A DNA stretch of 64,000 nt from Clostridiales bacterium. GTDB taxonomy: Bacteria > Bacillota > Clostridia > Lachnospirales > Lachnospiraceae. This document shows positions 5,370 to 37,849 of this stretch, piece after piece. The notes under the pieces were generated by a model that saw only the letters and a list, made by a program, of their open reading frames with translations, was not told where the DNA came from and ran no database searches. The stretch lies in NCBI GenBank assembly GCA_012839295.1, contig DUNO01000011.1:35484-99483 (forward strand), in the 5' to 3' direction. How positions within the stretch are numbered: position 1 is the first letter of the stretch; each line of letters opens with the position of its first letter. The translations under genes and the position numbers were made by a program.

Positions 5370-5425
5370 AATCCTCCTTCCTAAAGGATGCTCCGCCTCC
5401 CTCTATAAGGAGGATTAACCTCCTT
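5370..5425 (-). promoter_or_regulatory. SD-copy / anti-SD / SD leader of the YvyF-like gene
   Basis: Minus strand order is AAGGAGG, TTA, AATCCTCCTT, then the true ribosome binding site AAGGAGGATT just before the ATG. The anti-SD can pair with the upstream copy (7 bp, 5-nt loop) or with the true site (10 bp perfect). The two pairings exclude each other. Confidence 0.5.
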
Positions 5426-23647: not shown

Positions 23648-23949
23648 ACCAACTCTCCATTTCCCAAAGGATTATCTTTCAAATCTCAAAGGATTGTTTT
23701 TTAATCCTTGCCTTTGGAGCGAAAAATCTCCTGGACTGGATATTTTCCGGTCTTTTGGACTAAACATCCCCAGTCTCCCGGGCTGGATACCTTCCAGCCT
23801 TCTATCCTGGACATTTCACTGCTGTTAATGGTCTCAAATTATATTTTAGTATATTATGAATATTTGTCAACTTTTTTTATTGTCAGTTTATCCTATAAGT
23901 TTATCCTATCCGGCCCAATATTTCAATAAGTTATTAGGACTAACCACCT
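23648..23949. other. Intergenic gap between rsmD and the spore protein gene
   Basis: No gene visible. It contains an imperfect inverted repeat AAAGGATT-TTTTTT-AATCCTT (about 23688-23708) and short repeated phrases (CTGGACTGGATA, GGGCTGGATACC). The track ORFs here have no ribosome binding sites and look random. Confidence 0.5.
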
Positions 23950-24463: not shown

Positions 24464-25831
24464 TTATTCGGATGTCCGCTGGTCAAGGGGAATATAACCC
24501 GTTCTCTTACAGATACTTTCATAGGCCGGACGGATAATCTTTCCAGCATTATTTAATTCTTCCAAACGATGGGCGCTCCAGCCTGCAATTCTGGCTATGG
24601 CAAAAATCGGGGTGTACAGCTCCTTCGGAAGATCCAGCATATGATAAACAAAGCCGCTGTAGAAGTCCACATTTGCACTGACTCCCTTGTACATCCTTCT
24701 TTCCTTTCCTATAATCTCAGGAGCAAGACGCTCTACCTTTTCATATAAGCCGAATTCCTTCATCAGACCCTTTTCTTCTGACAGGCTTCTTACATAGCGC
24801 TTCAGGACATTGGCCCTTGGATCGGAGATGGAGTAAACGGCATGTCCCATACCATAGATCAATCCCATCTTATCAAAGGCTTTTTTATTTAATATATCAG
24901 AAAGATAAGCACTGATTTCCTCTTCATCCTCCCAATCCTTGATCTTTTCCTTCATGTCGTCAAACATCTGCATAACCTTAATGTTGGCACCGCCGTGCTT
25001 TGGACCCTTCAAGGAACCCAGGGAAGCAGCCACAGAGGAGTATGTATCTGTGCCTGAGGAAGTTACCACATGGGTGGTAAAGGAGCTGTTATTACCGCCG
25101 CCATGCTCCGCATGGAGTACCAGCGCCACATCCAGGATCTTTGCTTCCAGCTCCGTGTATTTCTTATTGGGGCGGAGCATATATAAAAGGTTTTCCGCTG
25201 TCGACAGCCCTTCCTTCGGGGGATGGATGACTAAGCTTTTATTATGGTGGTAATGGCCGTAAGCCTGATAACCATATACAGATAATAATGGAAATAATGC
25301 TATCAGCTGGAGGCTCTGTCTCAGGACATTCTCCATTGAGGTATTATCAGCCATATCATCATAGGAATAAAGCGTAAGCACGCTTCTTGACAAGGTATTC
25401 ATCATATCCTTACTTGGAGCCTTCATAATAATGTCCCTGACAAAGCTGGAGGGCAGCTCCCTGTAATTTTCTAATAAGTTAACAAAACGATCCAGCTGTT
25501 CCTTTGCCGGAAGATTACCAAATAACAGAAGATAAGCGGCTTCCTCGAAGCCGAACCTCTTTTCCTCCATATATCCTGCAATAAATTCCTCCACGTCAAC
25601 ACCGCGGTAATATAATTTACCCTCACAAGGCAACACTTCGCCCTCTACCTTTTTATGAGATACAATTTCACAGATGTCGGTAAGTCCCGCCAACACACCT
25701 TTTCCATTGATATCTCTTAAACCACGTTTTACATCGTATACCGTATATAGTTCAGGGTCTATCATCGTATTCTTCTTGCATAACTCAGTTAATTCAATAA
25801 TTTCTGGGGTGATTTCGGAATACTTATTCAT
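24464..25831 (-). CDS. gltA: Citrate/2-methylcitrate synthase
   Basis: A 455-residue citrate synthase: oxaloacetate plus acetyl-CoA gives citrate. Catalytic histidines are in LVLHAEHGGGN and YGMGHAVYSISDPRA, the catalytic aspartate in ANVDFYSGFVYHML. In fermentative clostridia it probably supplies 2-oxoglutarate for glutamate. The ORF track uses TTG 25885; ATG 25831 has an AAGGAGAA site. That site lies in an SD/anti-SD structure, and the gene has its own promoter with a palindromic -10, so both transcription and translation look controlled. No other TCA-cycle genes are adjacent. Confidence 0.93.
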   Translation of the reverse strand: MNKYSEITPEIIELTELCKKNTMIDPELYTVYDVKRGLRDINGKGVLAGLTDICEIVSHKKVEGEVLPCEGKLYYRGVDVEEFIAGYMEEKRFGFEEAAYLLLFGNLPAKEQLDRFVNLLENYRELPSSFVRDIIMKAPSKDMMNTLSRSVLTLYSYDDMADNTSMENVLRQSLQLIALFPLLSVYGYQAYGHYHHNKSLVIHPPKEGLSTAENLLYMLRPNKKYTELEAKILDVALVLHAEHGGGNNSSFTTHVVTSSGTDTYSSVAASLGSLKGPKHGGANIKVMQMFDDMKEKIKDWEDEEEISAYLSDILNKKAFDKMGLIYGMGHAVYSISDPRANVLKRYVRSLSEEKGLMKEFGLYEKVERLAPEIIGKERRMYKGVSANVDFYSGFVYHMLDLPKELYTPIFAIARIAGWSAHRLEELNNAGKIIRPAYESICKRTGYIPLDQRTSE

Positions 25832-25832
25832 G

Positions 25833-25876
25833 AATTCTCCTTTCGATTGTGAGAAAGGAGAATTTTTCTCCTTTCT
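25833..25876 (-). promoter_or_regulatory. SD-copy / anti-SD / SD leader of citrate synthase
   Basis: Minus strand order: AGAAAGGAGAA, AAA, TTCTCCTTTCT, CACAATC, then the true site GAAAGGAGAATTC and ATG. The anti-SD pairs perfectly with the upstream copy (11 bp, 3-nt loop) or with the true SD (10 bp, 8-nt loop). Confidence 0.6.
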
Positions 25877-25950: not shown

Positions 25951-25985
25951 TGGTATAATTATACCATAGATCGGATTGTATGCAA
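25951..25985 (-). promoter_or_regulatory. Promoter of citrate synthase with palindromic -10
   Basis: Minus strand TTGCAT, 16-nt spacer, TATAAT. The -10 is inside the 16-bp palindrome TGGTATAATTATACCA (25951-25966). A second inverted repeat ATTACT-ATA-AGTAAT (25934-25948) lies just downstream. Both could be operators. Confidence 0.6.
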
Positions 25986-37801: not shown

Positions 37802-37810
37802 GTGGTACAC

Positions 37811-37849
37811 AAAGGGGAGAACCTCCTCCCTTTTCACACTTGAAAGGAG
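37811..37849 (+). promoter_or_regulatory. SD-like / anti-SD / SD leader of the GntR gene
   Basis: AAAGGGGAG, then CCTCCTCCCTTTTCA, then the true site TGAAAGGAG. The pyrimidine segment can pair with either flank, each with one or two bulges; a weaker version of the leaders at 5370 and 25833. Confidence 0.35.

Follow-up and report, generated by a model that had tools for sequence, protein, structure and literature searches.

Tandem Shine-Dalgarno Hairpin Arrays Before Citrate Synthase and Other Genes of Herbinix: Candidate Two-Register RNA Switches

Introduction

The leader of a citrate synthase gene (citS) in a Lachnospiraceae genome (contig DUNO01000011.1) contains two copies of the Shine-Dalgarno (SD) sequence and one anti-SD arm that can pair with either of them. 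This raises the question of whether the leader is a translational switch of citrate synthase, as proposed in a preliminary description of the sequence, or one case of something wider. The window, i.e., the whole 64,000-nt stretch of DNA that was analyzed, was therefore considered together with its own genome, its genus and more distant genomes.

Results and Discussion

Anatomy of the Citrate Synthase Leader

The minus-strand sequence of the leader is GGACAAT-AGAAAGGAGAA-AAA-TTCTCCTTTCT-CACAATC-GAAAGGAGAATTC-ATG, and the exact positions bore out the previously described order of a decoy (D), an anti-SD arm (A), and the SD with its ATG:

25866..25876, minus strand: upstream SD copy (decoy, D), AGAAAGGAGAA, where the sister species has its plain SD
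25865-25863, minus strand: loop AAA between D and A, 3 nt
25852..25864, minus strand: pyrimidine anti-SD arm (A), of which TTCTCCTTTCT is 25862-25852
25845..25851, minus strand: A-rich linker CACAATC, from A to the working SD
25833..25844, minus strand: working SD and its 3' flank, GAAAGGAGAATT, 5 nt (from GGAG) ahead of the ATG
25831-25829, minus strand: citS start codon, ATG
24464..25831, minus strand: citrate synthase coding sequence, 455 aa, the controlled gene
25958..25985, minus strand: possible promoter, read by eye (TTGCAT, 25985-25980; TATAAT, 25963-25958)

D pairs with 25862-25852 over 11 bp, as had been counted. The pairing of A with the working SD was also found to be perfect, but it comprises 12 bp (AATTCTCCTTTC, 25864-25853, with GAAAGGAGAATT) rather than the 10 bp first given, as the AATT contributed by A also pairs, with the AATT located 3' of the SD. 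Folding of the citS leader surpassed all of the dinucleotide shuffles (200/200, z -3.4). No riboswitch aptamer had been evident at citS, and an Rfam scan of the window likewise returned no family at the gathering threshold.

The palindrome reported at the -10 element (GGTATAATTATACC) is present, although the promoter itself was missed by a simple promoter scan. The palindrome is not retained in the sister species (GCTATAATTAAAAC) and is incidental. A terminator (G+C-rich hairpin followed by a T run) was absent from the coding strand of citS; the sole terminator-like match lay on the opposite strand, and an intrinsic terminator or attenuator was rejected for this leader. A leader peptide starting from the ATT inside the array was dropped because other loci gave no support.

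The citS Unit Is a Recent Insertion

The citS leader was compared with 29 loci of other members of the genus, one of which lacked the leader due to a contig end. The D/A pair was missing from all 28 readable leaders, each of which carried a plain SD. Conservation of the decoy and the anti-SD, on which the preliminary description had staked its proposal, was thus not found at citS taken alone. The sister species, which is the closest relative (93% protein identity), has the same upstream leader followed by GGACAATAGAAAGGAG-ATAAC-ATG, without the 31-nt insertion. Most simply, the window species would have gained approximately 31 nt before citS, with D occupying the old SD position. With the pair missing from every readable citS leader of the other genus members, the citS unit is a recent insertion rather than a switch that citrate synthase genes have conserved, and it stands as a young case, one unit long, within a larger set of arrays in Herbinix.

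Array Leaders in the Window and Its Genome

Two further leaders of this kind were located in the window:

37810..37849, plus strand: second unit, degenerate, before a GntR-type regulator (ATG 37860), with strong D:A and weak A:SD pairing
5370..5425, minus strand: third array-like leader (ATG 5364-5362), read by eye, consisting of AAGGAGG, AATCCTCCTT and SD AAGGAGGATT, with an A:SD pairing of 10 bp and a further hairpin between

Elsewhere in the window, the leader of an rsmD-like gene (23648-23735, minus strand) contains AATCCTTTG twice, with CAAGGATT upstream, and these give alternative hairpins that are not complementary to the GGAG SD.

The citS leader sequence matched additional places in its own genome. 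The exact pattern occurred at seven loci (13 matches, both strands) and the reversed pattern at none, and two units, (D-A)2-SD-ATG, precede a DarA-like gene, a xylulokinase gene, and an iron alcohol dehydrogenase gene. In the window genome, 1.26 Mb was covered by an SD-complementarity scan and a sequence-agnostic scan. The former detected a stretch complementary to the SD, at least 9 bp long and immediately 5' of it, at 11 of 811 SD-preceded starts, vs. 0.2 expected from shuffles. Other cores among the 11 included GGAGGC-CAAA-GCCTCC, as well as GGAGG-N-CCTCC before gyrB, each derived from the SD of its own gene. The sequence-agnostic scan, which sought any 8-mer followed by its reverse complement and the same 8-mer again, identified seven loci including citS and none in a first-order Markov sequence used as the control; at six of the seven, the array ends at the start of an ORF that has an SD, and the seventh is AT-rich.

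Spread Across the Genus, the Family and Beyond

Arrays of the form (D-A)n-SD, with 1-6 units, precede many unrelated genes in the window genome and across Herbinix, including gyrB, ilvC, carB, leuB, recA, minD, tig, cheW, flhA, flgD-like and xylB (names read from N-termini, not from a family search). A large genome would carry many array genes, judging from the 1.26 Mb and from counts of the pattern, part of which is background. The exact pattern was present in 5 of 34 genomes of the genus, and the sister species carries a four-unit array before xylulokinase. Three lone matches were recovered from 395 genomes of the family outside the genus, and 84,980 species genomes yielded 11 stretches, five of them in Herbinix or Lachnoclostridium records. 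The strict pattern had no match in viral contigs. GGAGG-N-CCTCC-N-GGAGG was found in 24 of the 34 genus genomes, in some of which it stood at 15 vs. 0 and 17 vs. 0 against the reversed control; in the window genome, about half of the 102 matches (vs. 47 reversed) may be background. Other Lachnospiraceae genera were near the control level, as judged from the count table.

A covariance-model search gave many weak matches, of which the analysis retained solely those seen by eye to precede a start codon. Among the pattern matches listed, which are not a random sample, 57 of the 67 non-redundant loci read and 23 of the 25 multi-unit loci end at a start codon. In a species without SD arrays, four weak matches of the covariance model lie exactly 50 bp apart (G007:C1:982779-982947) and represent some other tandem repeat. 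Three Bacillaceae, namely two Parageobacillus species and Bacillus methanolicus, retain one D-A-D unit (GAAAGGAGTTTAGGCTCCTTTC...GAAAGGAG) ahead of a livH-type-looking permease gene.

Arrays at different genes have nothing in common beyond the SD, the anti-SD, and A-rich linkers (53% A), and their cores and linkers vary by gene (GAAAGGAG, GGAGGC, and GGAGGA types). The arrays are therefore not a dispersed repeat, since each is built from the SD and linker of its own gene. REP/MITE elements and variable-number tandem repeats resemble them in having short palindromic tandem units, variable copy numbers, and many genomic sites, whereas the arrays share an SD core only, use the local SD and linker, and sit at start codons. 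A dispersed palindromic repeat was rejected because cores and linkers are gene-specific instead of shared. The linkers are alike within the GAAAGGAG subset of the window genome, and copying between loci is possible for this subset. Because the architecture alone is conserved, sequence-family methods miss the arrays.

The main null explanation is that the arrays are a mutational by-product, i.e., that inverted and tandem duplications arise easily at the SDs of this genus and are tolerated without a regulatory role. We consider this somewhat unlikely. Near-perfect tandem copies occur within arrays and unit number changes, which is typical of repeat slippage, and an inverted duplication could account for A being complementary to the SD flank. 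Presence is also sporadic: arrays are rarer at xylB and trpB, and most relatives lack an array at citS, xylB, and trpB. This pattern counts against a switch, as does the lack of an obvious function shared by the target genes. On the other hand, such a process could strike any intergenic DNA, yet the arrays are almost confined to the SDs of start codons, where a hidden SD should be costly unless compensated. The history of the gyrB arrays, described below, also argues against a by-product.

Covariation and the History of the gyrB Arrays

In 64 final units, the mean complementarity of A to the bases after the SD of its own gene was 2.64, vs. 1.18 when A arms and SDs were permuted between loci (2000 permutations, maximum 1.67). 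D paired with A over a mean of 7.5 bp in these units. Covariation was assessed at 45 loci using gap-free concatenated D, A, and SD blocks and 500 shuffles, and both pairings covaried: 82% of A:SD positions were paired (0.185 vs. 0.071 shuffled, sd 0.014, 0/500), as were 70% of D:A positions (0.118 vs. 0.069 shuffled, sd 0.012, 0/500). The signal was stronger for A:SD than for D:A and much lower for slid versions of both pairings; as the loci are mostly different genes, some of them related, the match may partly date from the origin of the arrays.

A comparison of orthologs is stricter. Among gyrB orthologs, 12 distinct final units had 85% of A:SD paired with a covariation of 0.182 (1/500). Covariation of D:A in the same 12 units was at the chance level (124/500), and D may therefore be less constrained than the arm of a true switch. 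The gyrB arrays occurred in 14 species, all of which fall inside one clade of 17 in the GyrB tree (fork supports moderate, 93/90), and array presence required four label changes, vs. 9.9 in shuffles. One of the three array-less species of the clade has a degenerate unit. The arrays comprise 1-6 units, and their sequences have turned over between species. These data fit an old gain at gyrB, after which the array would have been kept while loops, linkers, and unit number turned over. Persistence across the clade, despite sequence turnover and with A:SD covarying among orthologs, is what a tolerated by-product does not readily explain.

The main functional rival is a ribosome standby site, in which A:SD forms a stable hairpin and the free D copies and A-rich linkers retain the 30S subunit for as long as the hairpin stays closed; translation would then be maintained or smoothed by the array, not switched. 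Known standby sites likewise have a single-stranded SD-like stretch just 5' of a structured SD, which corresponds to the OFF register described below, and the better conserved A:SD pairing, which leaves an upstream D copy free, agrees with this model, as does the A content of the linkers. However, the upstream stretch of the arrays is complementary to the anti-SD arm, unlike that of standby sites. D is usually complementary to A over more bases than a landing pad needs, and D:A covaries across the 45 loci. A standby role is judged unlikely.

Predicted Energies and a Candidate Switching Mechanism

When only the last unit was considered, the difference between ON and OFF was predicted to have a median of +1.1 kcal/mol across the 64 units and to be +1.9 kcal/mol at citS. 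The difference was within 2 kcal/mol in 28 of the 64; beyond that, 24 were predicted to favor OFF and 12 to favor ON, which counts against the switch reading. In minimum-energy folds of the growing citS chain, D:A (-13.6 kcal/mol) formed first and A:SD (-15.5 kcal/mol) after the SD emerged. The balance between ON and OFF depends on context, since the minimum-energy fold of a longer citS leader was D:A. The predicted probability of an open SD was 0.06-0.88 without a unit vs. 0.0002-0.017 with units, with no clear trend in unit number past the first unit. As in translational riboswitches, the SD can in silico be freed or masked by two pairings that exclude each other; both are possible and covary across the 45 loci, and their predicted energies are nearly balanced.

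Based on these chain-growth folds and predicted energies, we infer a strand exchange that runs from ON to OFF. Pairing of A with the upstream D would leave the real SD open (ON), whereas A would close the real SD by pairing with it and with the initial bases of the SD-ATG spacer (OFF). D:A would be transcribed and folded first. The emerging 3' flank of the SD would then nucleate on the 5' flank of A, situated in the loop of D:A, so that D is displaced, and the mRNA would drift to OFF unless a 30S subunit already held the SD. Initiation would be favored on fresh transcripts and under plentiful ribosomes. In multi-unit (D-A)n-SD leaders, the exchange would be relayed along successive units, with the balance set by the length of the arms and by how many units there are. 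Folding in the cell, the order of events, their direction, and ribosome supply as the input belong to the inferred part of this reading.

The two registers of the preliminary description are supported by the anatomy, the nearly balanced predicted energies, and the multi-locus covariation; a conserved switch at citS is not. That array leaders are two-register RNA switches made of the gene's own ribosome-binding site has, in our view, about an even chance of being correct, given sequence comparison and folding predictions.

Two other accounts were considered. Repeated D copies could be bound by a trans-acting protein (e.g., a GGA-binding regulator of the CsrA type) or an sRNA that sets the register. 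Arrays do contain several GGA motifs at a regular spacing of 25-33 nt, the last one over the SD. However, all GGA copies but one are paired in a stem whichever register forms, and no CsrA-like ORF was found in the DNA read, which is part of the genome; a trans-acting factor is quite improbable. An RNA thermometer, in which heat would melt A:SD, is less probable still and hardly to be expected. As in ROSE and fourU elements, a local hairpin near the start codon sequesters the SD, and SD opening at citS was predicted to be 0.006 at 37°C and to rise to 0.13 when calculated for 55°C. The arrays differ from these elements in their competing SD copy, tandem copies, long perfect stems, and lack of a U-only anti-SD arm. 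A fourU/ROSE thermometer was rejected because the stems are perfect over 8-13 bp and most other arrays were predicted to stay closed at 55°C; the target genes are not heat-shock genes.

Relation to Known Systems

Strand exchange and kinetic control during transcription are established for riboswitches (PMC10907184). In riboswitch platforms, as in the arrays, one strand pairs with either the SD or a competitor. The arrays differ in lacking a recognized aptamer, in using an SD copy as the competitor, in their tandem arrangement, and in their occurrence at many unrelated genes with differing sequences. No leader sequence common to the array genes was found that could represent an aptamer, in line with the Rfam result for the window, although an aptamer of an undescribed kind may be present.

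Tandem SD hairpin arrays are, to our knowledge, undescribed, and a narrow search of open papers turned up no account of them. The Herbinix arrays are apparently an undescribed way of translation control, as far as their sequences indicate. Only tentatively, and as a possibility that we rate well below an even chance, do we propose a new class of cis-regulatory RNA, namely tandem SD/anti-SD arrays built from a gene's own SD and used across one clade, which would act as ligand-free kinetic switches tunable by copy number and sensing ribosome supply. If this is true, gyrB, ilvC, carB, recA, and more genes in one clade would be under a common control architecture without having a sequence in common, and the SD of any gene would suffice to build it anew. 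Such arrays would offer a natural system for co-transcriptional strand exchange, ribosome competition, and the relation of repeat number to translation, and RNA regulation would spread via local duplication, not via mobile elements.

Other Leader Elements

Several other elements were noted in leaders of the genus and family. At a trpB-like gene in two species, an SD array lies downstream of a T-box-looking motif (GGGTGGTACCGC, by eye) and its terminator, and two RNA controls may be stacked there. At xylB, two species have a different inverted-repeat insertion (GGCAATTACGAAACC ... GGTTTCGGTAATTACCGGATAGAA) directly before the SD. A conserved leader, GGAGGGGCTAACCCTCCAGACGAAAGAAAGGAGGGCGATGCCAATG, precedes a short ORF (M-VTY-) in many other Lachnospiraceae genera, sometimes twice per locus, and is possibly that of a small holin-like or type I toxin mRNA.
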